Assembly (NCBI RefSeq): GCF_024464655.1
Contig: NZ_JANHAV010000002.1
Location: 124,001-188,000 of the forward strand
Length of the DNA: 64,000 nt
Direction of reading: 5' to 3'
From: Halobellus inordinatus
GTDB taxonomy: Archaea; Halobacteriota; Halobacteria; Halobacteriales; Haloferacaceae
The number at the start of each line of letters is the position of its first letter. Within the stretch, counting starts at the first letter, position 1. Position numbers and translations under genes: made by a program. Below, piece by piece: positions 9,665 to 53,594 of the stretch. Under the pieces are notes generated by a model. That model searched no databases. It was not told the origin of the DNA and worked only from the letters and a program-made list of their open reading frames with translations.

Positions 9665-10238
9665 TCGGTCCGTCCGTCGACGTCCGTTGTCCCGTGCAAC
9701 GCGCGTCTGCGTCCCAGTATCGACGTCCGCCATTCCGCAGTTTTTCTATTCGAGTGAGGTCCTGCGGCAGGGTCGTTTCGTGGATGCGCCCCTTCCGGGG
9801 CCACCAGTCTGTCACTGCCCGCGAACGGCCGATCAACACCAGAGAGCGGAGCACCGACTCTACTCTCTCCTTGCGGTGGATCGGCCGAGTGAGAGCGGAC
9901 GCCGTCCGAGAGGTCATACTGTCGGACAGAACTATGTGAAAATTATCGGCACCCCGTAGGTGCCAAAATGATTCACGAACTTCTGTCCGACAGTATCACT
10001 AGCTGCGGGTGTTCGACGGCGACCACACCCCTGTAGCAGGTTCCCGACCCGGCTGGAACCGGAGAACGAACTCACTGCCGATGAGCCGACGGTCGGCCCA
10101 CTCGTGCTCGACAGACCGCACGTCTACGGGCGGCGCGAACGGCGACACCTCCCCGCGCTGCTGCTCCCAGGAGTCTCTGCTCGCAGTTCAACAGACCACA
10201 GACAGTAGACCTTTGCTCCCGGTCGTCGACGTCCGCGT
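9665..10238. other. Non-coding stretch between amiE and the FAH-family gene
   Basis: 574 bp without a believable gene; open frames here lack haloarchaeal codon pattern or family features. The only structure noted is the long inverted repeat at 9916-9996. Composition shifts locally to AT-rich around 9935-9975. Confidence 0.5.
9916..9996. repeat. 81-bp inverted repeat, MITE-like
   Basis: The outer arms ATACTGTCGGACAGAA (9916-9931) and TTCTGTCCGACAGTAT (9981-9996) are perfect complements over 16 bp. Complementarity continues, with a 4-bp mismatch block, to a GTGAA/TTCAC pair, giving 25-bp arms. Inside is a second stem GGCACC (9948-9953) / GGTGCC (9959-9964). Each outer arm is itself palindromic (CTGTC-N-GACAG). 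The tips read TA-CTGTC and GACAG-TA, compatible with a TA target duplication. It contains no gene. It could be a small non-autonomous transposon relic or a terminator-type structure; I cannot match it to a named element. Confidence 0.6.
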
Positions 10239-27393: not shown

Positions 27394-27477
27394 CCGCGTC
27401 GCGGTCGGCGGCGTCCCCGATCCTGTCCGCGAGGACATCCCAGAAGTCATATGCCGGAGTCGCGATTCTGCGCACGT

Positions 27478-28473
27478 ATGGACGCCTACGAGCAGATCAC
27501 CCGGAACGTCTCCGAGGTGGTCACAGAGGACGAAGTGCGCGCGCTAGCCGAATCCCCGGACGGAAAGCGGGCGTACGTCGGCTATGAGCCCTCCGGCGTC
27601 CTCCACATCGGTCACATGCTGACCGCGAACAAACTCATCGAACTCCAGGAGGCGGGCTTCGAGATCGTCGTGCTGTTGGCCGACGTCCACGCCTACCTCA
27701 ACGACAAGGGGACGTTCGACGAGATTCGCGAGACGGCGACCCGAATGCAAGAGCAGTTCGTCGCCTACGGCCTCGAGGAGTCCCAGACCGAATTCGTCCT
27801 CGGCTCTGAGTTCCAACTCGACGAGGAGTACGTGCTCGACCTGCACGCGCTCGAACTCGAAACGTCGCTCTCGCGGGCCGAGCGCGCGATGGCGGAGATT
27901 CAGAGCGGCGACACCGCGACCGTCGCACAGGCGGTCTACCCGCTGATGCAGGCGCTCGACATCGTCTATCTCGACGTCGACCTCGCGATCGGCGGGATGG
28001 AACAGCGCAAGGTGCATATGCTCGCCCGCGACACGCTGCCGAGCATCGACGCCGACGCGCCGACGTGTCTTCACACGCCCTTGATCGCGGATCTGACGAC
28101 CGGCATCGGCAAGATGTCGACTTCCTCGGGCGTCTCCATCTCGATGGAAGACTCCGCGTCGGACATCGAAGACAAGGTCAACAAGGCGTACTGCCCGCCG
28201 ACCGCGGATCCAGAGCCGACAGACGAGGGACAAGAGCGGGAGAACCCCGTCCTCCAGATCTTCGAGTACCACATCTTCCCGCGCTTCGGCGAAGTCGTCG
28301 TCGAACGCCCCGAGCAGTACGGCGGCGATCTGACCTACGAGCGTTACCAGGACCTCGAAGACGACCTCGAATCCGGCGAACTCCACCCGGCGGACGCGAA
28401 GGGCGCGCTCACGACGTACCTGAACGACCTCATCGCGCCCGGTCGCGAGAAGATCCGCGAGCAGCGGGACTGA
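27478..28473 (+). CDS. tyrS: Tyrosyl-tRNA synthetase
   Basis: Archaeal-type TyrRS, 331 residues from ATG 27478. The class I HIGH motif (HIGH, residues 43-46) follows YEPSGVL. The KMSKS-type loop reads GKMSTSSGVS. The helix with QAVYPLMQALDIVYLDVDLAIGG recognises tyrosine. It charges tRNA-Tyr. Stop codon TGA at 28471-28473 touches the 82-bp palindromic element at 28473. In-frame ATG 27 bp upstream is a less likely start. Confidence 0.97.
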   Translation: MDAYEQITRNVSEVVTEDEVRALAESPDGKRAYVGYEPSGVLHIGHMLTANKLIELQEAGFEIVVLLADVHAYLNDKGTFDEIRETATRMQEQFVAYGLEESQTEFVLGSEFQLDEEYVLDLHALELETSLSRAERAMAEIQSGDTATVAQAVYPLMQALDIVYLDVDLAIGGMEQRKVHMLARDTLPSIDADAPTCLHTPLIADLTTGIGKMSTSSGVSISMEDSASDIEDKVNKAYCPPTADPEPTDEGQERENPVLQIFEYHIFPRFGEVVVERPEQYGGDLTYERYQDLEDDLESGELHPADAKGALTTYLNDLIAPGREKIREQRD

Positions 28474-28554
28474 TAGTGATTACTCTCACTGTGTACCGCC
28501 GAGCGCCACTCCCGGAGGCGATGGTCGGCGGTAAGAGACGAGAGTAATCATTAT
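28473..28554. repeat. 82-bp palindromic repeat element, copy A
   Basis: Terminal arms ATAGTGATTACTCTC (28473-28487) and GAGAGTAATCATTAT (28540-28554) match with one mismatch. Six bases (ACTGTG / AGAGAC) follow each arm and are identical in copy B (37831-37912). The inner stem TACCGCCGA (28494-28502) / TCGGCGGTA (28525-28533) then encloses a variable centre. The left edge shares the last base of the tyrS stop codon. Lengths, arm positions and stem offset (21 bases from each end) are identical in both copies. MITE-like or REP-like; no gene inside. Confidence 0.85.
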
Positions 28555-28662
28555 GAAGCTCCGCCGTCGGTCTCCCCCACCGACGTCGCCTCCTTGCCAC
28601 TGCGGCCGTCTGACGCCCGTCTTGCTGAGATTGATATTCGCGAGCCGCTAATTTACCCGATT

Positions 28663-28815
28663 ATGGGGATCAAGGGAGTAGTGCTCGGCACGTATGCGCT
28701 CTGTCTCGGGGGACTGCTGTTGTTCTCGGACTCGGGCGTCGCGACCGGGTTGGGGGTAACGCTCGTCGCGCTCACGGGCGTCGCAGTCGTCGCTCAGTAC
28801 GGGACTATACAGTAG
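28663..28815 (+). CDS. 50-residue membrane protein
   Basis: Starts MGIKGVVLGTYALCLGGLL, with two hydrophobic helices (about 5-22 and 27-45), and ends QYGTIQ. An in-frame extension upstream is possible but has no membrane character. AT-rich DNA (CTAATTTACC) precedes the ATG. No family recognised. Its stop codon lies inside the inverted repeat shared with hisA. Confidence 0.6.
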   Translation: MGIKGVVLGTYALCLGGLLLFSDSGVATGLGVTLVALTGVAVVAQYGTIQ

Positions 28816-28861
28816 CGTTTGCAAGCGTTCGCACGCTGACCGAGTTGCAAACGCTACTGTA
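28808..28861. terminator. 17-bp perfect inverted repeat shared by two convergent gene ends
   Basis: TACAGTAGCGTTTGCAA (28808-28824) is the exact reverse complement of 28845-28861, with a 20-nt loop that has its own small stem (GCGT/ACGC). The repeat covers both TAG stop codons: the small plus-strand gene ends at 28815 and hisA (minus) ends at 28854. It would form one hairpin in either transcript, so a two-way terminator is plausible, though oligo-T stretches are missing. Confidence 0.65.
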
Positions 28862-29582
28862 CAGCCATCGCGTCCGCGAGAGTGAACGTCCCTTCGTAGA
28901 GCGCGGTCCCGACGACGACAGCCGCCGCGCCGGCGTCTTTCAGCGTTCGGACGTCGTCGAGCGACGCGACCCCGCCGGAGGCGACGACCGGGATGTCGAC
29001 GGCGTCGACGACGCGGCGCGTCACGCCCGCCTGGACGCCCTCGTGTTGGCCTTCGACGTCGACGTCGGTGAACAGAATCGCGCCCGCGCCGAGGTCCGCA
29101 TAGCGCGCCGCGGCGTCTGCGGGATCGAGTCCGGTGCCCTCGGTCCACCCGGAGACGACGACCTCGCCGTCTTTGGCGTCGAGGCTCACCATCACGCGTC
29201 CGGGGTACTCCGCGGAGATCTCTTCGACCAGTTCGGGCTCTTCGACGGCCGCTGTCCCGAGAATGACGCGCTCGACGCCGCGGTCGAGCAGGTCGATCGC
29301 GTCCGCCGCAGTGCGAATCCCGCCGCCGAGTTGCACCGGCACGTCGACGGCGTCGACGACGGCCTCGACCGCGTCGGCGTTCTGTCTCTCGCCCTCGAAC
29401 GCCCCGTCGAGATCGACGAGGTGCAGGGTCTCGGCGCCGGCGTCGACCCAGCGCTCGGCGGCCGCGACCGGGTCGCCGTAGCGTTTCTCGGTGCCGCGTT
29501 CGCCCTGTACGAGCTGGACGACCTCGCCGTCCTGCATATCGACCGCGGGGACGACCTCGAAAGTGGGGAATGGATCGCTCAC
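28854..29582 (-). CDS. hisA: Phosphoribosylformimino-5-aminoimidazole carboxamide ribotide isomerase
   Basis: Fourth histidine-pathway step, a TIM barrel isomerase. 242 residues starting at GTG 29582 (VSDPFPTFEVVPAVDMQDGEVV), the usual HisA opening; an earlier ATG adds Arg-rich sequence. Catalytic Asp in PAVDMQDG and the second in ILFTDVDVEGQ; phosphate-binding loops VPVQLGGGIRT and PVVASGGVAS are clear. Ends within the shared inverted repeat. Confidence 0.96.
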   Translation of the reverse strand: MSDPFPTFEVVPAVDMQDGEVVQLVQGERGTEKRYGDPVAAAERWVDAGAETLHLVDLDGAFEGERQNADAVEAVVDAVDVPVQLGGGIRTAADAIDLLDRGVERVILGTAAVEEPELVEEISAEYPGRVMVSLDAKDGEVVVSGWTEGTGLDPADAAARYADLGAGAILFTDVDVEGQHEGVQAGVTRRVVDAVDIPVVASGGVASLDDVRTLKDAGAAAVVVGTALYEGTFTLADAMAVQ

Positions 29583-29688
29583 GCGCGAGTGTCGGCGGGG
29601 GAGCGGCCTAAAGTCTCCGGAGCGAGGGGCCGCTGCGCGGTCAGATCGGATGCGGCACCGCGAAGTCACGACTCGGTCGGGGCGGCGT

Positions 29689-29919
29689 TCACTCGGTCAG
29701 CGGCAGCAGGATGCCGAACACGAACGGGGACAGCAGTGCGAGCAACACGCCGAGGAACTCGGCGTCGACGAGCAGCGTGTGCTCCCACGCGGGCACAGCC
29801 GCGCCGGTCGTAGCGATCGCAAACTCACCGAGCGCACCGACTGCGAACAGCCCGATTCCGAGGAGGAAACTCCGTTTCGTGAGGGTCGGGTAGTCCAGGT
29901 TGCCGTATCGACCTGTCAT
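29689..29919 (-). CDS. Small two-helix membrane protein (DUF7860-like)
   Basis: 76 residues starting MTGRYGNLDYPTLTK, the beginning that I recall for DUF7860 proteins of haloarchaea, followed by two hydrophobic helices (about 16-38 and 52-74). Function unknown. TATA-like AATATAC lies about 25 nt before the ATG on the minus strand. Divergent from the next small membrane-protein gene. Confidence 0.75.
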   Translation of the reverse strand: MTGRYGNLDYPTLTKRSFLLGIGLFAVGALGEFAIATTGAAVPAWEHTLLVDAEFLGVLLALLSPFVFGILLPLTE

Positions 29920-29970
29920 ATATGATGGACAATCGCAGATATTAATATACGTTCCTCTTGCGAACCAAAA

Positions 29971-29988
29971 GAGTCACACCAGTGACTC
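29971..29988. promoter_or_regulatory. 18-bp palindrome between divergent small genes
   Basis: GAGTCAC-ACCA-GTGACTC, perfect 7-bp arms, 14 bp before the ATG at 30003. Position in a divergent promoter gap makes it a candidate regulator site. It could also be part of the 5' leader. No matching regulator seen. Confidence 0.4.
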
Positions 29989-30002
29989 CTCGATAGGACG
30001 GT

Positions 30003-30263
30003 ATGACTACCGCACCCCTCGAACTCGTTCCCGAACTGCTTGAGGTCCTGTTTTTCAGTCTGGGCTCCGTCGGCCTCTCGCTCGTCGGGGCGTCTCTCGA
30101 ACGCTTCGCGCTCACGAGCGCCCAGGGCGGCGAGCTAACGCTCGGCCTGTGGGCCGCGATCATCGGCGCCGTCGCGCTGTATTTCGCGTACTACGTCGCC
30201 GTCGACAAGGCCCTGCCGACGATGACCGAGTTCAAGCGCGCTCTCGGCGGCGCTGCCGAGTGA
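30003..30263 (+). CDS. Small membrane protein
   Basis: 86 residues, two hydrophobic helices (about 14-35 and 47-66), acidic N-terminus. Ends ALPTMTEFKRALGGAAE. Resembles unassigned haloarchaeal small membrane proteins; no known family recalled with certainty and no function. Confidence 0.65.
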   Translation: MTTAPLELVPELLEVLFFSLGSVGLSLVGASLERFALTSAQGGELTLGLWAAIIGAVALYFAYYVAVDKALPTMTEFKRALGGAAE

Positions 30264-30389
30264 CGCGTTGAACCAATCGAGCCGGTGCCGGCGCGCGATT
30301 GCTCGTCCGGCTCACGGCAGGCGATCGGCGCTCTCTGACCGGCGATTCCTTCGCAACCGCTTTTACGGCGCGATGAGGAAGACGACGTA

Positions 30390-31751
30390 ATGAAACTGTT
30401 CGGTTCGAGCGGCACTCGCGGCGTCGTCGGCGACGGCCTGACGCCCGAGTTCGTCCTCCGCGTCGCGAAGGCGGCGGGGACAGTGTGGGAGACGGACCGC
30501 GCCGTCGTCGCACGCGACACCCGAACCACCGGCGAGATGCTCGCGAATGCGGCCGTGAGCGGCTTAGAGAGCGTCGGCGTCGACGTCGACCGGCTCGGGA
30601 CGACCCCGACGCCGAGCGCCGTCCGCTACGCCGGCGAGTACGAGCGTCCGGGGATCATCATCACGGCCTCGCACAACCCGCCGGAGTACAACGGCGTCAA
30701 ACTCGTCGGCGCCGACGGCGTCGAACTCAGCGTTGCCGACCTCGAACGGATCGAAGAGCACGTTCTCAGTGAGGACTTCGGGACCGCCGCCTGGGACGAG
30801 GTCGGCGCCTCACGAACGATCGACGCAGTCAACCGCGAGTACGTCGAGGAGCTCCTCGCGTCGGTCGACCGCGAGACGATCGCCGACGCCGACCTCACCG
30901 TCGCGCTCGACCCGGGCCACGGCGCGGGCGCGCTCACGAGCCCCGAGTTCTACCGCGAACTCGGCTGTGAGGTCGTCACCGTTAACGCCAACCCCGACGG
31001 GCACTTCCCCGGCCGCGAGTCCGAGCCAGTCGAACCGAACCTCGCCGACCTCAAATCGCTCGTGAAGGCGGCCGACGCGGACGTCGGCATCGCCCACGAC
31101 GGCGACGCCGATCGAGCCGTCTTCGTCGACGAGACCGGCGCGTTTGTCGCGGGCGAAGCGTCGCTCGCCGCGCTGGCCGCCGCCGAACTGGAGGCAGGCG
31201 ACACGACTGTCGCTGCCGTCAACGTCTCGCAGCGGCTCGTCGACGTCTGTGAGGAGGTCGGCGCCGCGCTCGAACTGACCCCGATCGGCTCGACGAACAT
31301 CATCACCCGGATTCGGGAACTCCGCACGATGGATGCGCACGTCCCGATCGCCGGCGAGGGCAACGGCGGGATCTTCTTCCCCGAATACCGACTCGTCCGC
31401 GACGGCGCATACGTCGGCGCGAAGTTCCTCGAACTCGTCGCCGAGCGCCCCGTGACCGAGATCATCGCCCCCTACACCGACTACGAGAACGTCCGCATCA
31501 ACCTCGAATACGACACGGACGCGGAACTCGACGCGATGCTCGGCGCGGCCCGCGAGTTCGCCGAGTCCGCGGACGCCGACCCGAACACGATCGACGGGTA
31601 CCGCCTCGATTACGGTGACGCCTGGGTGCTGGTCCGTCCCTCCGGCACCGAACCGAAAGTGCGCGTCTACGCCGAGGCGCGCTCGGAGTCACGTGCTCGT
31701 ATTCTCGCCGAGGAGGCGGCCGACGCACTCCGCGCCGCGCTTGAGGAGTGA
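30390..31751 (+). CDS. glmM: Phosphoglucosamine/phosphomannose mutase
   Basis: 453 residues, complete alpha-D-phosphohexomutase. The phosphoserine loop is TASHNPPEYNGVKL (active Ser), the metal-binding loop is DGDADRAVF, the sugar loop GEGNGGIFFPE and the phosphate-binding loop RPSGTEPKVRVY. It interconverts hexose 6- and 1-phosphates for glycan or UDP-sugar synthesis; haloarchaeal members are usually called GlmM or phosphomannomutase, and the sequence does not settle which. Stands alone. Confidence 0.93.
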   Translation: MKLFGSSGTRGVVGDGLTPEFVLRVAKAAGTVWETDRAVVARDTRTTGEMLANAAVSGLESVGVDVDRLGTTPTPSAVRYAGEYERPGIIITASHNPPEYNGVKLVGADGVELSVADLERIEEHVLSEDFGTAAWDEVGASRTIDAVNREYVEELLASVDRETIADADLTVALDPGHGAGALTSPEFYRELGCEVVTVNANPDGHFPGRESEPVEPNLADLKSLVKAADADVGIAHDGDADRAVFVDETGAFVAGEASLAALAAAELEAGDTTVAAVNVSQRLVDVCEEVGAALELTPIGSTNIITRIRELRTMDAHVPIAGEGNGGIFFPEYRLVRDGAYVGAKFLELVAERPVTEIIAPYTDYENVRINLEYDTDAELDAMLGAAREFAESADADPNTIDGYRLDYGDAWVLVRPSGTEPKVRVYAEARSESRARILAEEAADALRAALEE

Positions 31752-31790
31752 GGCTGTCGCCTGCGTCGTCCAGCGTGTTCGGGCGTTCAG

Positions 31791-31841
31791 AGTCCCCAGT
31801 TGTCCACAGCTCCCAGTCGTCCAGAGTTCTCAGTTGTCCTG
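31791..31841. repeat. Three imperfect 17-bp tandem repeats
   Basis: Units at 31791-31807, 31808-31824 and 31825-31841 share the pattern AGTYCCCAGTYGTCCAN, in the gap after glmM where genes converge. No gene inside. Could be slippage product or a binding array. Confidence 0.5.
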
Positions 31842-31859
31842 ACGTGAGGACGCCGCCGT

Positions 31860-32177
31860 TCACAGCGCGAAAAACCCGAATAGCAGACAGACCACGCCGA
31901 GCACCAGGAGGACGAAGCCGCGCTCGACGGAGACGTCGTCGCGGCGGTTCGTCGCCGACTCGGTCGTCGTCGGAGTCGAGTCGTCCGACGAGGACCGCTC
32001 GCCGGGTGGTTCGAGCCAATCTGTCGGGTGTGCGAGCCCCGTCTCGGTCCCCGCGTCGAGTCGCTCGTCGCCGTCGGCGTCGAGTCGTTCGAGCGCGCGC
32101 TTCGTCCGCAGCGACCGCGCCCCGTAGTAGAGGCTGAGTGCCCCGGCTGCGAACGCCACCGCCGAGACGGCGACCAT
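31860..32177 (-). CDS. Two-helix membrane protein with acidic linker
   Basis: 105 residues: N-terminal helix (about 1-20), a charged Asp/Glu/Ser/Thr-rich segment (about 25-80) and a C-terminal helix (about 84-105). Start overlaps the stop codon of the upstream gene (32179-32177) by one base, so the two are translationally coupled. No family recognised. Confidence 0.65.
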   Translation of the reverse strand: MVAVSAVAFAAGALSLYYGARSLRTKRALERLDADGDERLDAGTETGLAHPTDWLEPPGERSSSDDSTPTTTESATNRRDDVSVERGFVLLVLGVVCLLFGFFAL

Positions 32178-33361
32178 CAGCCCTGTTGCCTGCCGGTCTC
32201 GTTCGCGTCCTCCAGCGCCGCCGACAGGCGCTCGCGGGCGTCGCGGAGGCGTTCCAGTTCGGCTGCTGCGACGCCGGACTGAACGCGCTCGCGTTCGTCG
32301 GCGTCGAGTTCTTCGTGCGCGCGAGCGGCGAGCCTGAGATCCGCGTAGTCGTCGCGACGGGTCAGATCCCGCACCTCTCGAAGCCGTGCGACAGTCTCCT
32401 CGGAGGCGAACCGTCCGAGTAGCGAGATCGCTTCGCCGGCGAAGCGGCGGAGCGTCCCCGCCGACGGCGGCGGGAGCGAGACGGTCAACGGCTCGGCCGA
32501 GAGCCGTTCGAGGTACGTTCGGTGGACGGCGACGCTCGTCTGGAGCGTTGCGGGGTCCTCGGCGTAGTGATCCAGTTTCGACCCGGAGTAATCGGCATAC
32601 TCCAAGAGCGTCGGAATCGGTTCGTCGGCGTCGGGACTCTCCCGAACGAACTCGCGGAGGTCGCGCGGCGGCGACCGGAACGCGACGAGCGGGAACGACT
32701 CCGCCCGTTCGAGGAACTCGATCACGGCGGTCGCCGACGCCGACTCGTAGAACGACTGGAACTCGGCGCTGACGGCGTCGTTGTACGCCTCGATCGGGTC
32801 TCGGAGTTTCTCGACCGGCGCGCCGAGGTCGGCGTCGGCGAAGGCGAGCGTCTCCGCACGCGATTCGATCTCCTCGTCGAGGTCGCGGAGACAGAGCTTC
32901 GCGTCCCGGCGTGCCTCCGAGAGCGTCTCTTTCGTCTCTTCGCGCCGGTCGAGGAGGTCGACGTACTCCGCGGCGGGTTCGAGGTCCTCGCGCGCCGCGT
33001 CGAAGTGGTCCTCGCTGAGTCGCCGTCGGTCCATCCGCTCGGCGGCGGCCTCGAAGCCGTCGTGCGCCGGGACCGACTCCGGGAGGTCTTCGACGAGGCC
33101 GAGAAAGCGATCCTGGAACTCGACGTACGCCTGGAAATCCCCCGTCCCGGTGGCGGAGTCCTCGTAGTTCTCGAACAGTCGGATCGACTTCCGGTAGGCG
33201 TCCGCAGCGGCGACGACGGACTCCTCGCCCACGTCCTCGATCCGCGATTCCACCTTCTCGCGCCGCTCGCGCGCCGCCTGCAGGTCCTCGATCCGCGCGT
33301 CGACTTCGGCGAGCAGCGCATCCACGTCGGCGTCGTCAGCCGTCGATTCCGGTCCGGACAT
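32177..33361 (-). CDS. Coiled-coil haloarchaeal protein (DUF7118-like)
   Basis: 394 residues, highly acidic and helical, heptad-like stretches (about 15-50 DARIEDLQAARERREKVES; later VDLLDRREETKETLSEARR). No membrane segment or enzyme motif. Matches the DUF7118 type as I remember it. May work with the small membrane protein coded 1 base downstream, and hisI follows upstream (33368) in the same direction with a 6-bp gap. Confidence 0.75.
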   Translation of the reverse strand: MSGPESTADDADVDALLAEVDARIEDLQAARERREKVESRIEDVGEESVVAAADAYRKSIRLFENYEDSATGTGDFQAYVEFQDRFLGLVEDLPESVPAHDGFEAAAERMDRRRLSEDHFDAAREDLEPAAEYVDLLDRREETKETLSEARRDAKLCLRDLDEEIESRAETLAFADADLGAPVEKLRDPIEAYNDAVSAEFQSFYESASATAVIEFLERAESFPLVAFRSPPRDLREFVRESPDADEPIPTLLEYADYSGSKLDHYAEDPATLQTSVAVHRTYLERLSAEPLTVSLPPPSAGTLRRFAGEAISLLGRFASEETVARLREVRDLTRRDDYADLRLAARAHEELDADERERVQSGVAAAELERLRDARERLSAALEDANETGRQQG

Positions 33362-33367
33362 CGGTCC

Positions 33368-33736
33368 TTACTCGTACACCGCGTCGGGATCGAACACTTG
33401 CTCGCCGACGTTCTCGCCGTCGATCGTCCGGTAGAAACACGAGCGGTGGCCGGTGTGGCACGCACCGCCCGTCTGGTCGACGAGATACAGAAGCGTGTCG
33501 GCGTCGCAGTCGACGCGAATCTCCTGAACCTCCTGGGTGTGGCCGCTCGTCGCGCCCTTCTCCCAGAGTTCGTCGCGACTGCGGGAGTAGTAGTGTGCGC
33601 GCCCCGTCTCGCGCGTTCGTTCGAGCGCCGCCGGTGAGACGTACGCCAGCATCAACACCTCGCCGGAGTCGGCGTCCTGTGCGACGGCGGGGACGAGTCC
33701 GTCATCGCCGAAGTCCACCTCGACGTCGTCGGTCAT
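33368..33736 (-). CDS. hisI: Phosphoribosyl-AMP cyclohydrolase
   Basis: Third histidine step. 122 residues starting at ATG 33736 ([14 protein letters not shown]). Zinc- and Mg-binding residues: [28 protein letters not shown], plus the conserved VLMLAYVS opening. The monofunctional type; hisE is not visible nearby. A longer frame reaches 33871, but homology begins near 33736. Same strand and only 6 bp from the DUF7118-like gene, so it is probably the first gene of that unit. Confidence 0.95.
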
Positions 33737-33870
33737 TACCTCGACCGAGGAGTGTCCGTCCGATAGGTCTTTTGCCCCGTTCTGGACCCGAAATCGCGCT
33801 GTCATAAAAATAGTTTGACAAAATAGTGAAACTCCAGAAAACCCAAAACTACGACCGCAGACTGATCGCA

Positions 33871-34140
33871 ATGACTGACCCTCCAGATGGAGAAATCGTC
33901 CATCGGACTCTCGAGACGGATCGAGAACAGCCGGTCGTCCAGATTGCAGAGGTCGTCGCCGAACTCGAAGGAAAGAGCCACGAACAACTGACGACGACGT
34001 ACGAGCACCTCGATCACGTTCTCGAATACATATTCACCACGCCGCCGGTCCCGGAAGCACAGGTGGAAATTACGTTCAGCTACGAGGGATACCGAATCAC
34101 CGTCGAGCAGGACGGGAGTGCGCAGTTCGTCAAAACGTGA
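33871..34140 (+). CDS. HalOD1 output-domain protein
   Basis: 89 residues from ATG 33871 ([13 protein letters not shown]). Contains the HalOD1 pattern: an N-terminal helix [20 protein letters not shown], the motif [15 protein letters not shown], then two strands around [18 protein letters not shown]. HalOD1 domains act as output modules of haloarchaeal two-component and light-sensing systems, here as a free-standing copy. It is encoded alone, between divergent hisI and convergent pibD. Confidence 0.85.
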
Positions 34141-34152
34141 CTCGGCCGGCGC

Positions 34153-35214
34153 TCACAGCACGCCGAGCGCCCCGAGGACGCCGAACACGACGTCGCCGTA
34201 CGTGAACGCCAGCAGTGTCCCGACGAACATCGGGACGATGAACGGGATGCCCGGCGAGATCCACACGTCGTTCTGATCGGCGACGATCTCTAGGCCGCCG
34301 CGGAGTTTCTCCGGTGTCGTGCCGTAGGCCGTCCCGTCGATGCTGTCGAGGAACGCCTCCGCACCCCACTGATCGTCGGCGCTGACGTCAGTGTCGCTCG
34401 CGGCGGCCGCTCTGCCGTTCGTATCGCTCGCGAGTGCCGTTCCCTCATCCGTTCCGCCGTCAGTGTCGATATCGGCCGCTCCCGTCTCGGGAACCGGTGA
34501 GTCGCTCTCGACGCCGACTGCGCCGTCTGTCGGCTCGTACGTCGCACCGATGCTCTCGGGGTCCCGGAACCCATCGGGGTCCGCCCGGAGGTCGGCGAGG
34601 TTCGCGCCGCGCCAGCGGAGGTACATCCGCAGTGCGTCGATGTCGAGGCCGTTCCGCGAGAAGCCGTCGGGCGTCTCGAACAGGCGGCCGTGCGCCGTCG
34701 AGAGCGCCGAGACGTCGATCCGCCGGCCGAGGAAGACGACCGGAAATCGGACGTCGCCGTCGAGCAGATTCCGTCCCGCGAGCGCGAGCGGATAGACGGC
34801 CGCGAGGACGACCGTGTTCGTCAGGACAGTCATCGAGAAGACGCCGAGCGTCGTCACAGTCGAGGGCAGCGTGAACCCCGCGAAGTAGTACGTCGGAAAC
34901 GTCGGGAGGAGAATCGCGATCGTGATGAGCGCCTTCGCGTCTGCGCCCCCGAAGCCGCCGAGCAGCCAGAAGATGTAGGCGATCGGTGCGACGAGAAAGA
35001 GGCTGATCGCGACGCGCACGAAGAACAAGACGTCCGCAGACGTCGCCATCGAGACGTGTCCGAGGGCGTCCCACACGACCAAGAGGACGCCCAGCGCGAC
35101 CAGCGGGTACCAGGTCCGACTCGGCACCCGTCGCGTCTCGACGTCCCGCCACGCCGCCCACCCGAGGACCGGGAGGACGGCCAACCGAAGCAGATCCGGT
35201 ACGCTGGCGAACAT
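34153..35214 (-). CDS. pibD: Prepilin/preflagellin peptidase (type IV leader peptidase A24)
   Basis: Membrane aspartyl protease that trims type IV pilin and archaellin leaders. 353 residues. The catalytic Asp pair is visible: Asp24 in WAAWRDVETRRVP and Asp92 in GGFGGADAKAL (GxGD). About five helices occupy the first 150 residues. A long acidic insert (about residues 155-320) precedes the last helix, with LDIDALRMYLRWRGANLAD and an Asp/Ala/Thr-rich region. Many archaeal PibD proteins carry a large soluble insert, and this is a sizable one. Position does not form a pilus operon. Confidence 0.93.
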   Translation of the reverse strand: MFASVPDLLRLAVLPVLGWAAWRDVETRRVPSRTWYPLVALGVLLVVWDALGHVSMATSADVLFFVRVAISLFLVAPIAYIFWLLGGFGGADAKALITIAILLPTFPTYYFAGFTLPSTVTTLGVFSMTVLTNTVVLAAVYPLALAGRNLLDGDVRFPVVFLGRRIDVSALSTAHGRLFETPDGFSRNGLDIDALRMYLRWRGANLADLRADPDGFRDPESIGATYEPTDGAVGVESDSPVPETGAADIDTDGGTDEGTALASDTNGRAAAASDTDVSADDQWGAEAFLDSIDGTAYGTTPEKLRGGLEIVADQNDVWISPGIPFIVPMFVGTLLAFTYGDVVFGVLGALGVL

Positions 35215-35336
35215 ACAGGGGAAGTGACCCCGGGGGAGTTGTAGTTTGCGTCTGCGTCGGCTCTACCTCGCACACCGCGTCGGCGCTCACACGTGACAAC
35301 TACGACACTCGCTGGCCCGTCGTCTTCCATCCAAGC

Positions 35337-35759
35337 TTACTCGCCGGGCGACTCGACGACGCCCAGTTGTTGGAGGAAGCTGAGGTTGTCGGGCAGCACC
35401 CACCATTCAGCGACCTTTCCGTCCTCCAACCGGAGGAAAGCCATCGTCTGATGCTCGAACTCGTTGCCGGTCGGTTCGATCCCCATCAACTCCCCGTCGT
35501 GGACGCCGCGCTCTGTCAACCTGGCAGCGACGGTATCTCCCTCCGCGATCATATCCTCGACGGTCACCGTGTAGTCCGAAAACGCGTCGAGCGTCTCCGC
35601 GAAGCTCTCTTTGATCTCTTCGTGGCCACGGAAATCACGCATTGGGCTGTGTTCCACCGCGTCCGTCGCATACAGCTCCTCGACTGCGTCGAGGTTTCTC
35701 TGTTCCAGTACGTCTCGCAGGATCCGATGGGCGATTTCTTTGTTTTCCTCACTCGACAT
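35337..35759 (-). CDS. SnoaL-like / ester cyclase-type protein
   Basis: 140 residues with an NTF2-like (SnoaL) fold signature: AHRILRDVLEQRNLDAVEELYATDAVEHSP, then FRGHEEIKESFAETLDAFSDYTVTVED and EPTGNEFEHQTMAFLRLEDGKVAEWWVLPD. Members are mostly uncharacterised in archaea; some are polyketide cyclases. No substrate inferred. Confidence 0.85.
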   Translation of the reverse strand: MSSEENKEIAHRILRDVLEQRNLDAVEELYATDAVEHSPMRDFRGHEEIKESFAETLDAFSDYTVTVEDMIAEGDTVAARLTERGVHDGELMGIEPTGNEFEHQTMAFLRLEDGKVAEWWVLPDNLSFLQQLGVVESPGE

Positions 35760-36033
35760 CGGCGTCCCCTGTATGCTGGAGCCACGACTATTGTTAGCGA
35801 GTGCTGTATCGAACTATGACCGACGTAAACGAGAGAAAGGCCCGCCTATTTTCCGGTCGATCAGATCCGGGACGGCGATTGATCTGCAGCGGCGATCGAG
35901 GACGGTTCTCCCCGGCGTTGGCCGTCTGCGCTGCCGACGAGGTCGCGGGCGCAAAAAGCGCGAATGTTGGGATTTCGGTTCTCGGTGCGACCGAGAACGG
36001 GTGTTAGAGGAACCGTTCGTCGTACAGCCTTCG
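35760..36033. other. Intergenic region upstream of the SnoaL-like gene
   Basis: 274 bp. It holds the promoter region of the 35759 gene and the hairpin at 35978-35998 after the ferredoxin gene. A 62-codon open frame (plus strand, 35819-36007) has no family match and poor codon character. Confidence 0.4.
35978..35998. terminator. Possible terminator hairpin after ferredoxin gene
   Basis: GTTCTCGGT-GCG-ACCGAGAAC, perfect 9-bp arms with a 3-nt loop. It lies 36 nt after the ferredoxin stop on its coding (minus) strand, followed a further ~25 nt on by a T-run. Fits a hairpin-assisted terminator. Confidence 0.5.
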
Positions 36034-36423
36034 TTAGATGACGCGGTTCTGGAGGTAGTCGAGGTGCTTCGCGTTGTAGACGATCTTGACCTCGTCGGCT
36101 GCCGGCGAGCCGATACAGGTCAGGCGGACGTTCTTTTCGGAGACTTCCTCGTCGGAGAGGATCTGCTGCATATCCATATCGATCTCGCCCTCCTTGAGGA
36201 TGGACGCGCAGTTCGCGCAGGCACCCGCGCGGCACGAGAAGGGCCAGTCGTAGCCCTGCGCCTCGGCGGCTTCGAGGATGTATTCGCCCTGGTTGACTTC
36301 GAGAGAGCCGTAGTCTTCGTCGTCCAGACCCGCGTCAGCGGCCTTCTCGAAGAGGTCGTCGTCGTCCATGTCCCAGCCCTGGTCGTCCAGCACTTCGTAG
36401 TTGAGGTATTCTACGGTAGGCAT
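36034..36423 (-). CDS. fer: Halophilic 2Fe-2S ferredoxin
   Basis: Plant-type ferredoxin, electron carrier for pyruvate/2-oxoglutarate oxidoreductases. 129 residues, matching the length of classic halobacterial ferredoxin. Iron-sulfur ligands are Cys64, Cys69, Cys72 (CRAGACANC) and Cys103 (LTCIGSP). The N-terminal acidic insertion ([20 protein letters not shown], residues 18-37) is the halophilic add-on known from Haloarcula and Halobacterium structures. Start [10 protein letters not shown] at 36423; an in-frame extension is not credible. Confidence 0.97.
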
Positions 36424-36561
36424 CAGCAAGCGGTTTGTATGCCACCCCATTAGACTTTGCTGTTCGATTCGTCGATTACGAGCGATTGTTCGGGACGTAT
36501 CACTGCTGTGTGCGGTGACAGTGGGGGTCACTCCGCCGGAGGCGCGGCCGACTGCGACGAC

Positions 36562-37758
36562 TTACAGCGGGACGGCCGCGAAGAGCGCGTACGACGCCGC
36601 GGCCGAGAGACTCGGCGTGAGGAGCCAAAAGAAGATCACGCGACCGGTCGTCCCCGGGTCGAACAGATCGGTGCCGCCGAGATCGCGTGCGGACTCTTCG
36701 CCCACTGGCGGGACTTCGTCGCTCGTTTCGGTCGTCAGCGCGTCGACGGACATCTCCGGCGCGGTGCCCCCGAGCGCTTCGCCGAGGGTCACCGTCCGCG
36801 TGGCGCGACCCCAGCCGAGGCCGACGATGCACATCGTCGCCGAGACGGCGAGACTCGCCGGAATGCCGAGATACGACAGCATCGCGATCAGCGACGCCGA
36901 CACCGTCTCGACGACGAGCGCGGCCAGGATCGGCAGTTCCGTGAGGTCGTTGCCGACGGTGTCGAGCGTCCGCCGTGCGATGGTGAACGCGCCGAGACCG
37001 ATCGCGCCGGCCGCGAGGAAGATGCCCTGATTGATCGACACCGCGCCGTTGCCGACGAGCGGGGCGACGGCGTTGGCGGCGTTCGACGCGCCCGCCGAGT
37101 AGGCCATATAACAGGCGATGACGACGACGAGGCCGACGCTGCCGAGTTCTCGGGGCGTCGTGTTCGGCCCGAGTCGGGGCCGCGGAAACCCGTCCTCGCG
37201 GTCGAGGACGACGATCGGGCCGGGAGAGCGGTCGAGTTTCAGTTTCGCGTCGAGGTAGGGGTAGACGTACCGGCCGATGACCGCACAGACCCAGAAGGCG
37301 ATCACCGGGGCGACGATCCACCACGAAATGATCTCGAGCATCACGGCTTCGTTCAGCGTTCCGGAGGCGACGCCGAGGCCGGCGATCGCGCCGACCGCCG
37401 TCATCGACGTCGACGCGGGGACGCCGAACGTGTTCGAGATGAGGAGCGCCAGGCCGACGAAAAAGAGGACGGCGACGCTGGCGGCGAGCGTGAACTCGCT
37501 TTGGGGGACGATGCGCCCGCCCATCGTCTCGATGACTTCGCGCCCGGCGGTCCACGCGCCGAGGAGCGCGAAGCCGGTCATCAGGATCGCCGCGCCCAGT
37601 TTCGAGACGAGGTCGCTCCCGACGGCGGGGCCGAACGCGACGCCCGTCGAGGAGCCGCCGATGTTGAAACCGACGAAGACAGCGACGAAGAGACCGACGG
37701 CGAGGAGTGTTTCGACCACGACGCGTGGTTTGCAGTACCGGCGGAAAAACGTCACCAT
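36562..37758 (-). CDS. Inorganic phosphate transporter, PiT family
   Basis: 398 residues, about ten membrane segments in two halves. The first half has FVGFNIGGSSTGVAFGPAVGS and the second has YSAGASNAANAVAPLVG; both are forms of the Pit signature (GANDVAN-like) in archaeal transporters. A charged loop separates the halves. Pit proteins are secondary symporters of phosphate with H+ or Na+, of lower affinity than Pst. No PhoU is visible next to it. The upstream promoter gap contains copy B of the 82-bp element. Confidence 0.93.
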   Translation of the reverse strand: MVTFFRRYCKPRVVVETLLAVGLFVAVFVGFNIGGSSTGVAFGPAVGSDLVSKLGAAILMTGFALLGAWTAGREVIETMGGRIVPQSEFTLAASVAVLFFVGLALLISNTFGVPASTSMTAVGAIAGLGVASGTLNEAVMLEIISWWIVAPVIAFWVCAVIGRYVYPYLDAKLKLDRSPGPIVVLDREDGFPRPRLGPNTTPRELGSVGLVVVIACYMAYSAGASNAANAVAPLVGNGAVSINQGIFLAAGAIGLGAFTIARRTLDTVGNDLTELPILAALVVETVSASLIAMLSYLGIPASLAVSATMCIVGLGWGRATRTVTLGEALGGTAPEMSVDALTTETSDEVPPVGEESARDLGGTDLFDPGTTGRVIFFWLLTPSLSAAASYALFAAVPL

Positions 37759-37830
37759 CGACGCCGAGAACGCCCGGCACGCCGCAGTAAGATCGGTCAG
37801 GCCGCTCGAGTGCGTCCGGGCACGACGCTC

Positions 37831-37912
37831 ATAATGATTACTCTCACTGTGTACCGGTGAGCGCCGGCAATCGAGGTGGCGCTCATCGGTAAGAGACGAG
37901 AGTAATCATTAT
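37831..37912. repeat. 82-bp palindromic repeat element, copy B
   Basis: Terminal arms ATAATGATTACTCTC (37831-37845) and GAGAGTAATCATTAT (37898-37912) are perfect complements. Inner stem TACCGGTGAGCGCC (37852-37865) pairs with GGCGCTCATCGGTA (37878-37891) with one mismatch. Offsets and flanking 6-mers equal those of copy A (28473-28554), while the stem bases differ yet still pair. The right edge shares its last base with the TGA stop codon (37914-37912) of the neighbouring sulfhydrylase gene. Confidence 0.87.
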
Positions 37913-39213
37913 CAGTTCGTCGCGGCGTCGATCGCCTGTTCGAGGTCGGCGATGATGTCGTCGACGTCCTCGATGCCGACCGAGAGGCGGACCATATCGG
38001 GCGTCACGCCCGCGGCGTTCTGTTCTTCTTCGGTGAGTTGTTGGTGCGTCGTCGAGGCGGGGTGGATCACGAGCGTCTTCGCGTCGCCGACGTTCGCGAC
38101 CAGGGAAGCGAGTTCGACGTTGTCGACAGTGTCGCGGGCGGCCTCGTAGCCCGCTTCGAGGCCGAAGGTGATCATCCCGCCGTAGCCGCCCTCTAAGTAC
38201 TCGGAGGCCTCCTCGTGCGTCTCGTGGCTCTCCAAGCCGGGGTAGTTGATCCACGAGACAGCGTCGTGGCCTTCTAAGAACTCCGCGACGGCCATCGCGT
38301 TCTCGCAGTGTCGCTCCATCCGCATCGGCAGCGACTCCAGTTTTTCGAGGGTGTTCCACGCGTCGAACGGCGACTGGGCGTTCCCGAGATCGCGCAGGCC
38401 GCGGGCGATGGCCGCGTACGTGAACGCGGCGTCGCCGAAGCGCTCGGCGAAGTTGACGCCGTGGTAGGCGGGGTTCGACGCGCCGATCTCGGGGTACTTC
38501 TCGGCGTGCTCGCTCCAGGGGAACGAGCCGCCGTCGACCAGAATCCCACCGATCGTCGTCCCTGCGCCGGTGAGCCACTTGGTCGTGGAGTTCCACACGA
38601 GGTCTGCGCCGTGTTCGATCGGGCGGCAGAGATACGGCGTCGCGAAGGTGTTGTCGACGAACAGCGGCACGTCGTGCTCGTGAGCGATGTCGGCGATGCG
38701 TTCGATGTCGGGCGTGACGAGCGCGGGGTTGCCGATCGTCTCTAAGTGGACGTACGCCGTGTCCTCGTCGATTGCCTCCTCGTACGCCTCGTAATCGAGC
38801 GTGTCGACGAACTTCGTCGTGATCCCGCGTCGCTCGACGGTATGCGTGAAGTAGGTGTAGGTGCCGCCGTACAGCGACGCCGCCGTGACGATGTTGTCGC
38901 CGGCGCTGGCGAGCAGGAAGGTCGCGAGGTCGAGTGCGGCCATCCCGGACGCCGTCGCTGCCGCACCGACGCCGCCTTCGAGCGAGGCGAGGCGCTCCTG
39001 CAACATTCCGACCGTCGGGTTCATCAGCCGGCTGTAAATGAAGCCCTCCTTCTCTAAGGCGAACTGGCCGGCAGCGTCTTCGGCGTCCTCGAAGACGTAG
39101 GAACTCGTCTGATAGATCGGCGGTGCGCGTGAGCCAGTCGTCGGGTCGGGTTCCTGTCCCGCGTGGAGGCTCCGCGTCCCGAATCCGAGTGGTGTGTCGT
39201 CGTCGTCAGCCAT
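37912..39213 (-). CDS. O-acetylhomoserine aminocarboxypropyltransferase (sulfhydrylase)
   Basis: PLP-dependent enzyme (Cys/Met metabolism family) making homocysteine from O-acetylhomoserine and sulfide. 433 residues. The opening [32 protein letters not shown] is family-typical, the PLP lysine is in NSTTKWLTGAGTTIGG, and PFDAWNTLEKLESLPMRMERHCENA follows. It is a close paralogue of the gene at 41734, but in a different operon and without the metX neighbour. Its stop codon touches the 82-bp element. Confidence 0.93.
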   Translation of the reverse strand: MADDDDTPLGFGTRSLHAGQEPDPTTGSRAPPIYQTSSYVFEDAEDAAGQFALEKEGFIYSRLMNPTVGMLQERLASLEGGVGAAATASGMAALDLATFLLASAGDNIVTAASLYGGTYTYFTHTVERRGITTKFVDTLDYEAYEEAIDEDTAYVHLETIGNPALVTPDIERIADIAHEHDVPLFVDNTFATPYLCRPIEHGADLVWNSTTKWLTGAGTTIGGILVDGGSFPWSEHAEKYPEIGASNPAYHGVNFAERFGDAAFTYAAIARGLRDLGNAQSPFDAWNTLEKLESLPMRMERHCENAMAVAEFLEGHDAVSWINYPGLESHETHEEASEYLEGGYGGMITFGLEAGYEAARDTVDNVELASLVANVGDAKTLVIHPASTTHQQLTEEEQNAAGVTPDMVRLSVGIEDVDDIIADLEQAIDAATN

Positions 39214-40531: not shown

Positions 40532-41737
40532 TCACCGACTGAACAGCGACGCGTGAACGGGCGCGAAGTCGCCGCCGGTGTTGGGTTCGGCTTCGACGGT
40601 GTCGTGGACGGAGCGCCCGTTGACGCCCTCCGCGAGGAAATCGCGGAGCGGTGGCCCGACCTTCTCGGGTTCGACGAGGAACGCGTCGTGGCCGTGGTCG
40701 GAGTCGATGACGTGGTGCGACACCGGCACGCCCGTCTCGCGGAACGCCTCGGCGACGGTCTCCGATTGCTCGGTGGTGAAGTGCCAATCGCCCGTGAACG
40801 AGAGCAACAGCGCCTCGCCCTCGAAGGCGGCAAGCGCGCGCGAGTCGTTCTCGTAGCCCTCCGAGAGGTCGTAGTCGTCCATCGCCCGCGTGAGATACAG
40901 ATAGGAGTTGGCGTCGAAGCGGTCGACGAACTTCTCGGCCTGGTAGTCGAGGTAGGACTCCACGTCGCGGTAGGGGAAGAACGCCGCGGCGGGGTCGGCG
41001 GGGAAGGAGTCCCGGCGCGCGTCGCGGCCGGCGGCGCGCCGCCCGAACTTCTGCTCCATCGACGACTTCGAGAGGTACATCACGTGGCCGATCTGGCGGG
41101 CGAGCGCGAGGCCGTCGGTCGGCTGTTCGTCGTTTCCGTAGTAGTCGCCGCCGTTCCAGTGCGGATCGGTCGTGATCGCCCGGCGCGCGATGGCGTCGAG
41201 CGCGAGACACTGCGCGTCGAGGCGTGCCGCTGCGGCGACGGAAACGACGTACCGGGCGTCGTCGGGGTAGCGCTTCGCCCAGTCGAGGGCGTTCATCCCG
41301 CCGACGCTCCCGCCGACGACCGCGTGCAGGCGGCCGACGCCGAGCTCGTCGAGCAGTAGGCGCTGCGAGCGCGTCCAGTCGCCGATCGTGACCGGCGGGA
41401 AGTCGGTGCCGTACACCTCGCCCTCGGGATCGGTCGATGCGGGGCCGGAGGTGCCGTAGCACGAGCCGGGGATGTTCGCCGAGACGACGTAGTACTCGTT
41501 GGTGTCGATCGCCTTGCCGGGGCCGACGATGTCGTTCCACCACGCGCGAGCCTGGCCCGCGGTCTCGGAGCCGTAGCCGGCGACGTTCTGGCTGCCGGTG
41601 AGGGCGTGACAGACGAGCACCGCGTTGTCACCGTCGAACTCGCCGTAGGTCTCGTAGGCGACTTCGAGGTTCTCGATCTCGTCGCCGGAGGCGAAGTCGA
41701 ACCGCCCGAGGTCGACGGTTCCGCTGTCTGTTTTCAT
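40532..41737 (-). CDS. metX: Homoserine O-acetyltransferase
   Basis: Acetylates homoserine for direct sulfhydrylation to homocysteine. 401 residues, alpha/beta-hydrolase fold. Nucleophile Ser in the elbow [12 protein letters not shown], the acid Asp and His in [13 protein letters not shown], and the substrate loop [14 protein letters not shown]. The start ATG (41737) overlaps the TGA of the upstream sulfhydrylase (41736-41734), so the two are translationally coupled: metX makes the substrate of the upstream enzyme. Confidence 0.95.
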
Positions 41738-43071
41738 CGTGTTTCCTCCCCCTCGGAGTCCGAGGCCGAAACGCCTTGCGTTGCGGCGCGGATCGCCCGG
41801 TCCAGGTCGGCGATGACGTCGGCGGCGTCTTCGATGCCGACCGAGAGGCGGACCATCTCGGGGCTGAGCCCCGCCGCGCGCTGTTCTTCCTCACTCAACT
41901 GTGCGTGCGTCGTCGAGGCGGGGTGAATCACGAGCGTCTTCGCGTCACCGATGTTCGCGAGGAACGACGCGAGGTCGACCTCCTCGCAGGTCCGCTTGGC
42001 CGCCTCGAAGCCACCTTCGAGGCCGAAGGTGACCATTCCGCCGTACTCGAACTCGCTGTCGCCGTTCTCCTCGGAGCCCAGATACCGGGTCGCGTTCTCG
42101 TGGGTCGGGTGTTCCTCGAACCCCGGATACGACACCCACGCGACGTCCGCGTGTTCGCGGAGGAAGGTCGCGACCTCGCGGGCGTTCTCACAGTGGCGCT
42201 GCATTCGCAGCGGGAGCGTCTCCAGCCCCTGGATCGTCTGCCAGGCGTCGAAGGGCGACTGCTGATTCCCGAGCGTCCGGAGCGCCCGCTGGCGGGTGGC
42301 GTTGGCGAACGCGGCCTCACCGTAGCGCTCGACGAAGTCGATTCCGAACGCCGGATTGGGTCCAGAAAGCTCGTCGTAATCGGCGTGTTCCCACGGGAAG
42401 GTGCCGCCGTCGACGAGGACGCCGCCGACGGTCGTCCCCGAGCCGTGGAGCCACTTCGTCGTCGACTCCCAGACGATGTCCGCGCCGTGTTCGAGCGGCC
42501 GACAGAGATACGGCGTCGCGAAGGTGTTGTCGACGACGAGCGGCGCGGCCGCTTCGTGGGCAATGTCTGCGAGGCGCTCGAAGTCGGGCGTCTTCAGCGA
42601 GGGGTTCGCGATGGTCTCGACGTGGACGAACGCGGTATCCTCGTCGATCCGGTCTGCGAAGGCGTCGTAGTCGAGGGTGTCCACGACCCGGATGTCGACG
42701 CCGCGGCGCGTCGCCATCTTCGTCAGATAGGTCGCCGTCCCGCCGTACATATCCGCGCTCGCGACGACGTTGTCGCCGGCGTTGGCGAGCATACTGGTGA
42801 TCGAATCGAGCGCAGCCATTCCCGAAGCGGTCGCGACCGCGGCGACACCGCCTTCGAGGGCAGCGAGTCGCTCTTCGAGGATCCGCGTCGTCGGATTCGA
42901 GATCCGCGAGTAGACGTCGCCGTCGACCGAAAGCGCGTAGAGGTCGGCGGCGTGGTCGGCGTCCTCGAAGGCGTAGGAGGTCGTCTGATAGAGCGGCGGT
43001 GCGCGAGCGCCCGTCGCCTCGTCCGACTCCTGACCGGCGTGTAGACTCCGGGTGTGGAACCCATCGACCAT
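41734..43071 (-). CDS. O-acetylhomoserine aminocarboxypropyltransferase (sulfhydrylase), metX partner
   Basis: PLP enzyme, 445 residues from ATG 43071 ([15 protein letters not shown]); two further in-frame ATGs just upstream are possible. PLP-binding [42 protein letters not shown]. It is paralogous to the gene at 37912 with many shared blocks, but has a distinctive insertion [14 protein letters not shown]. First gene of the sulfhydrylase-metX unit, with a palindrome at its promoter. Confidence 0.93.
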
Positions 43072-43086
43072 ACTATGTGTAGTATG
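43069..43086. promoter_or_regulatory. Operator-like palindrome at the start of the sulfhydrylase-metX operon
   Basis: CATACT-ATGTGT-AGTATG, perfect 6-bp arms. On the minus strand the TATA-like TTATAAG (centre 43105) lies ~20 bp upstream, so the predicted transcription start (about 43080) is inside the palindrome. A repressor bound there would block the start codon region. Methionine or sulfur control is inference. Confidence 0.55.
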
Positions 43087-43165
43087 CATATTCCCACACA
43101 AACTTATAACCAGCGGTTACGGGACACGGGTCCCAGTTGTGGGGCCGGTGCGACGAAGCACCTAA

Positions 43166-53175: not shown

Positions 53176-53520
53176 AGATGAAATACTCGACTCGGAGATG
53201 AAATAGCCCCGTCAGACGTCGAGTTTTGACCGACCGTGAGCGATCTTCGTCGAGTGAAAACGGACACCCGTACTCGGCAGAACGCGACGGGACTCCCGAG
53301 AGGGAACCGACCGGGAGTACGTCTCGCGAGTGAAATATCCGATTTCACGAGCGCGACGGGATTCGAACCACGGTCGCTCCTTGCAGTCGCTCCCTGATTC
53401 GAATCCCTTACGATACGGTTCGACACGCCTCGCTATTCTCGGCGGTCACAACGAGCGCGACGGGACTCCCGAGAGGGAACCGATCGGGAGTACGTCGCGC
53501 GAGTGAAATCTCTGATTTCA
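53176..53520. other. Non-coding region with repeat units next to tRNA-Arg
   Basis: 345 bp without a convincing protein gene. It contains the direct repeats described at 53283-53542 and, between them, 53370-53455 of unassigned sequence. The region is best read as decayed tRNA-linked DNA. Confidence 0.5.
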
Positions 53521-53542
53521 CGAGCGCGACGGGATTCGAACC
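53283..53542. repeat. 87-bp direct repeat carrying the 3' end of tRNA-Arg
   Basis: Unit 1 (53283-53369) and unit 2 (53456-53542) are 87 bp each, 173 bp apart, with only four differences that I count. Unit 2 ends inside the tRNA-Arg gene. Each contains two hairpins (ACTCCCGA/TCGGGAGT at 53465-53491; TGAAATC/GATTTCA at 53504-53520). The tRNA 3' end motif CGAGCGCGACGGG is found at 53521, 53452 and 53348, plus a shorter form near 53283. It could mark repeated integration at the tRNA, or tandem duplication. Confidence 0.75.
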
Positions 53543-53594
53543 CGCGACCATCGGATTAGAAGTCCGACGCTCTGTCCAACTGAGCTACGCGCCC
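53521..53594 (-). tRNA. tRNA-Arg (anticodon TCT)
   Basis: 74 nt without CCA. Acceptor arm GGGCGCG (53594-53588) pairs with CGCGCTC, with discriminator G. D-arm GCTC...GAGC, anticodon stem TCGGA/TCCGA around loop CTTCTAA, so the anticodon is TCT (reads AGA/AGG). T-arm GCGGG-TTCGAAT-CCCGT. All arms pair, so the gene looks functional. Its 3' end is repeated downstream. Confidence 0.93.

Follow-up and report, generated by a model that had tools for sequence, protein, structure and literature searches.

Two copies of a short palindromic element lie in the window (the whole stretch of DNA analyzed, 64,000 nucleotides of Halobellus inordinatus), and each adjoins the stop codon of a protein-coding gene. 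Copy A follows tyrS and copy B a sulfhydrylase gene; the features concerned are these:

27451..28473, plus strand: tyrS (PF00579), host gene of copy A; start codon uncertain
28471..28473, plus strand: TGA, both the tyrS stop and the first of the two duplicated 3-bp target triplets at copy A
28474..28553, plus strand: copy A, element proper; its ACTGT arm adjoins the stop
28554..28556, plus strand: TGA, second copy of the target duplication at copy A
37829..37831, minus strand: TGA, read as TCA on the plus strand; the other of the duplicated target triplets at copy B
37832..37911, plus strand: copy B, element proper; its GTCTC arm adjoins the stop
37912..37914, minus strand: TGA, read as TCA on the plus strand; both the sulfhydrylase stop and one of the duplicated target triplets at copy B
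37912..39213, minus strand: host gene of copy B, the sulfhydrylase, a PLP enzyme of Cys/Met metabolism (PF01053)

The original prediction described 82-bp elements sitting exactly on stop codons. The placement is correct, but the length is not: the element proper spans 80 bp and is flanked by 3-bp direct repeats, and the stop triplet is itself the target-site duplication, a point missed in that first reading. The copies were also said to be in opposite orientation, meaning relative to their host genes, and this holds; on the plus strand both have the same orientation. The stacked stop triplets are real, reading TGA-TAG-TGA at copy A and TGA-TAA-TGA at copy B. The 14-bp element end has four matches in the window against 0.02 expected; a search of Rfam (window 28000-39000) returned no match to copy A or copy B at E up to 1.

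Comparison with relatives provides the empty sites. At tyrS, the element is absent and a single stop is present in five of five readable loci (in the sixth Halobellus locus, L150, reading halted at an upstream stop); the nearest relative, Atlit-31R, ends GAC TGA G. At the sulfhydrylase gene, none of 16 other Halobellus genomes carries the element, all 16 have a single-stop empty site, and the stop is TGA in 13. The insertions of copies A and B look lineage-specific, and the duplicated triplet is what was once the only stop codon.

The sulfhydrylase gene is one of a paralogous PLP-enzyme pair (37912-39213 and 41734-43101, 3.9 kb apart, 67% identity), a pairing that recurs in many Halobellus genomes. 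A 90-nt repeat (53280-53369 and 53453-53542, 94% identical) has a second copy that extends into the 3′ end of a tRNA-Arg gene (53521-53594), and is possibly a duplication of that gene's end.

Architecture and fold of the element

The element has inverted ends, TA(G/A)TGATTACTCTC...GAGAGTAATCATTA, and contains no transposase gene. Copy numbers reach 27 in the genome of the window (herein G000; a Halobellus, as close relatives of its tyrS indicate, 3.41 Mb in 23 contigs) and 40 in a second genome, G014. Comparison of 26 copies in G000 reveals a 3-bp direct repeat at the ends, almost always TGA or TCA, with single cases of TAA and GCC and two copies in which the ends differ; the 27th copy (L065) has one degenerate end. 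In a wider census (169 places, reduced to 160 by removal of duplicates; loci lacking an nhmmer match at E 0.001 were excluded), the two repeats are equal in 105/160 copies, with TGA in 58, TCA in 44, and TAA, GCC and CGA in one each. Outside Halobellus they are equal in 58 of 64 copies, always as TGA or TCA; the duplication lies outside the search models. The target is a palindromic site close to GNC-TSA-GNC, and the target profile displays no flanking signal beyond it.

Each element has an outer stem, formed by a 14-bp inverted repeat, and an inner stem of about 13 bp, with an asymmetric internal loop between them; folding yields one long hairpin. In an alignment of 67 of the 68 distinct Halobellus copies (L141 excluded), the 27 designated pairs are 92% paired, and 95.1% of cells in the outer 14-bp arms are paired. 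Among 16 diverse elements, both partners have changed in 19 of 27 pairs. Compensated cells number 69, compared with 19.8 in shuffled controls, and the covariation score is 0.479, compared with 0.142; the signal is lost when the partners are shifted. The inner stem varies in sequence and keeps its pairing, which plain recognition of the ends would not require. Element ends read TA(A/C/G)TG or TACGG, and an internal loop of ACTnn opposite nnGAC recurs in many of the elements inspected by eye. The evidence fits a DNA hairpin as well as an RNA hairpin.

Spread and related families

A first model (R1) matches 17/170 genomes of the family. A structure model built from the 16 diverse elements (R2) has matches at E 1e-4 in 157/392 Halobacteriales genomes, covering 48/95 genera; its E-values are rough and at most 11 matches were listed per genome. 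One genome, G466, has 90 matches of a single arm. Matches occur on plasmids (two Halobellus and two Natronorubrum records); none was found in phages, nor in viral contigs searched with one pattern.

A scan for architecture alone recovered 17 elements in 464 kb of G000, with none in the reversed sequence and none in 20 shuffles; the same scan of 400 kb of G014 returned none. The 17 include two further families unrelated in sequence, III (77-79 bp) and IV (77-78 bp). One family III element is in the window, and further copies are present in other stretches of G000:

9917..9995, no strand assigned: family III element of 79 bp, same architecture, TCA duplication; off stop, nearest predicted gene end at 252 nt

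Because the duplications of families III and IV include TAA, TTA, TTG and TCG, TNA is the best notation for the core, although some copies depart from it. At L227 (3937-3951) there is a lone 15-bp end (TACTGTCGGACAGTA), apparently a remnant after deletion between both arms of a family III element. A short palindrome with GTAGCGTTTGCAA ends lies near copy A (window about 28806-28867), and a similar one sits inside a family III element (L233, 8281-8442); such palindromes seem to be a second kind of small mobile palindrome.

Placement on stop codons

In a first set of copies, 62/80 lie exactly at a stop codon (G000, 20/26; G014, 26/29; other genomes, 16/25); four of the relatives' 58 loci (L114, L127, L137 and L145) were left out, one end not having been found. 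The census of 10 Halobellus genomes places 111 of 156 copies exactly at a stop, with the following shares by genome:

G000, 21/27; G014, 33/40; G010, 25/42; G007, 12/17; G008, 11/13
G012, 3/4; G005, 3/5; G004, 1/6; G002, 1/1; G003, 1/1

Of 112 at-stop copies, one of them outside Halobellus, 110 are on TGA and 2 on TAA. In 26 non-Halobellus genomes, 41 of 64 copies are exactly at a stop; these are a well-scoring, non-random sample that excludes two Halobellus loci, L438 and L443. Two subfamilies in G466 give 14/18 and 12/15, counts that share five copies with the 64. The insertion preference for gene ends named in the original prediction is supported, in several subfamilies, and stop placement is far above background.

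That background was derived from candidate target sites. In 464 kb of G000, 38 CTSAG sites fall at stops, 135 between genes and 276 in coding sequence; in 400 kb of G014 the corresponding numbers are 46, 160 and 140. When all TSA sites are weighted by the target profile, stops account for 23% (G000) and 22% (G014) of non-coding sites. The observed share in the two genomes is 54/67 against a weighted background of 22% (p=8e-24), a contrast that may be too large because genes were predicted with a purpose-written codon-usage gene finder that may overcount intergenic space. When the comparison is confined to sites up to 60 nt beyond a stop, 54/60 copies are at the stop, where 64% would be expected (p=6e-6; the odds ratio is about 5). 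The stop share falls with distance from the element consensus, from 71/90 in the nearest copies to 37/58 and then 3/11. Nine copies in G000 are identical, hence young, and eight of these are at stops. Empty-site comparison counts 22/156 copies inside genes, a figure that is unreliable where the duplications differ (one copy was removed); 11 of the 22 are non-stop, and some of these may truly interrupt genes.

Two plasmids carry independent annotation. On the Halobellus limi plasmid NZ_CP031312.1, 5/9 known places directly adjoin the end of a CDS. For the DFY28 plasmid NZ_CP134947.1, the count at annotated stops is 2/8 places, or 1/6 without a segmental duplication. This weaker association is compatible with a relaxation of filtering and argues against any strict rule of insertion at stops. 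The DFY28 plasmid (L365, L376, L377) has a large internal duplication, in which protein accessions found near 0-48 kb recur near 180-230 kb; it may be genuine or a product of assembly. For families III and IV, the stop shares are 5/11 and 4/13.

The limits of the gene finder raise the possibility that the pattern is an artifact of gene calling or of chance palindromes. We rule this out as exceedingly improbable based on the empty controls of the architecture-only scan, the concurrence of independent annotation at 5/9 places on the H. limi plasmid and the equality of a duplication that the search models do not include.

A second alternative is active targeting of gene ends, in which the mobilizing complex prefers the stop region through an extended DNA signal, or through the state of transcription or translation at its end, beyond the TNA core. 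The excess at stops over equally scored neighboring sites argues for this, as do the placement of the young copies and the repetition of the bias in many genera and in both G466 subfamilies. However, the bias weakens on the two plasmids and in families III and IV, the target has no signal past the short palindromic site, and fast selection yields the same picture. We regard targeting as possible, though doubtful.

The gene context bears on a third alternative, that the hairpin has been co-opted to end, protect or insulate mRNAs or to provide back-up stops; a terminator or stop cassette was named in the original prediction. A stable RNA hairpin would form directly behind the stop (z -6.6 to -9.7), the paired arms are conserved, and 30 of 62 at-stop copies lie between convergent genes. 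The other 32 are in tandem arrangements in which the gap is 50 nt or more; operon-like tandem gaps below 50 nt occur in 0/62 copies, compared with 17/82 CTGAG stops and 147/502 TGA stops. For the Halobellus at-stop copies, the next in-frame stop is immediate in 63/111 and one codon on in 33/111, so that 96/111 have a back-up stop no more than two codons away, which favors such a role. Across the order-wide sample the next stop is immediate in 18/41 and four codons on in 21/41. Back-up stops, usual in Halobellus, differ by subfamily, and this difference argues against a stop cassette; extra stops are also unneeded, because the duplication already preserves the native one. Downstream T-runs are not significantly depleted (11/111 behind elements, 52/330 behind ordinary TGA stops; p=0.16), which lends no support to replacement of a terminator. 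Orientation to the gene, 39:23 in the first set (p=0.056), becomes 64:47 in the census (p=0.13), which does not sustain an orientation-dependent function. A conserved role at particular genes is likewise rejected: only three host-gene groups are common to different species, and the two insertions in the window are absent from the relatives examined. Co-option as a 3′-end element is improbable, and the terminator or stop cassette is not upheld.

Origin of the elements and comparison with known systems

The explanation that we favor, at a probability of roughly 60%, is a non-autonomous foldback (MITE-like) transposon of about 80 bp that is moved in trans and has piled up on stops by filtering combined with target choice; the hairpins are most likely without host function. 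The transposon would cut at TNA. The class duplicates TAA, TGA, TTA or TCA, and every one of these triplets is TAA or TGA when read from one of the two strands. It follows from the sequence alone that insertion on a gene's stop rebuilds the stop and leaves the protein intact. Insertions within genes, tight operons and upstream regions would be lost, and copies would gather on stops. Sequence preference may add to this, as common last codons such as GAC produce CTGA(G) where TGA comes next. The inner stem may have stayed paired because the folded hairpin is needed for movement or survival.

Filtering and target choice would explain much of the stop placement. The residual excess (odds ratio about 5) and the highest stop share near the consensus go beyond filtering alone; either fast selection or true targeting could produce them. 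In favor of the transposon explanation are the equal duplications, the single-stop empty sites, the palindromic target profile, the young near-identical copies, the avoidance of operon-like gaps, the covariation of both stems and the TNA duplications of families III and IV. Counted against it are the non-TNA duplications (GCC, TTG, TCG and CGA) and the low stop shares on the DFY28 plasmid and in families III and IV. A bolder version, in which an order-wide class of ~80-bp hairpins is actively delivered to stops by a system that recognizes the TNA stop triplet together with a cue from the gene end, the folded hairpin being its substrate (a gene-safe transposon), is in our estimation unlikely.

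No distant pair of arms, as expected of an autonomous IS, was found in the DNA scanned for it, and isolated end matches in other genomes proved to be short copies, remnants or nothing clear. IS1031-type elements of the IS5 family make a 3-bp TNA target duplication. In contrast to a parent of that type, none of the 35 PF01609 loci examined (of 43 matches, in six genomes) carries the ends described here; other ends are found there.

The elements offer a simple rule for harmless spread in a gene-dense genome, as a TNA duplication on a stop rebuilds TAA or TGA, and they point to a widespread haloarchaeal class; our literature search, with subscription journals and ISfinder outside its scope, found no earlier description. 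They also make filtering versus true gene-end targeting directly testable; if targeting is true, the helper would be a gene-safe insertion enzyme.

Among known systems, REPs associated with RAYTs are likewise palindromic repeats near gene ends. They are 20-40 bp long and GTAG- or CGTC-tagged, and GTAG REPs reportedly supply a TAG stop to flanking ORFs (PMC3733652); the present elements differ in their 80-bp length, in their ends and in a 3-bp duplication that preserves the native stop. The small mobile repeats (SMRs) of Haloquadratum walsbyi, e.g., HqIRS41 (80 bp), are also haloarchaeal, are 80-110 bp long, and have prominent inverted ends and no known transposase (PMC3119063). As described there, SMRs make no target duplication and target other mobile elements; the present elements duplicate TGA or TCA and sit at gene ends. 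Prokaryotic MITEs such as RUP, NEMIS and ERIC are short, non-coding, multi-copy and mostly extragenic, with terminal inverted repeats and a target duplication (PMC10969869); the term "stop codon" is absent from that review. The 80-bp elements share all of these features, with a duplication fixed at 3 bp, and carry no transposase gene. They differ in that 111/156 lie on a stop and the inner stem is kept paired; in addition, their length varies little from 80 bp between genera, and a parent IS was absent from the loci and DNA examined. We file them as a variant of the known MITE-like foldback kind, with novelty limited to the literature searched; their stop placement is real and general, and is the more interesting as the stop codon is the target duplication.
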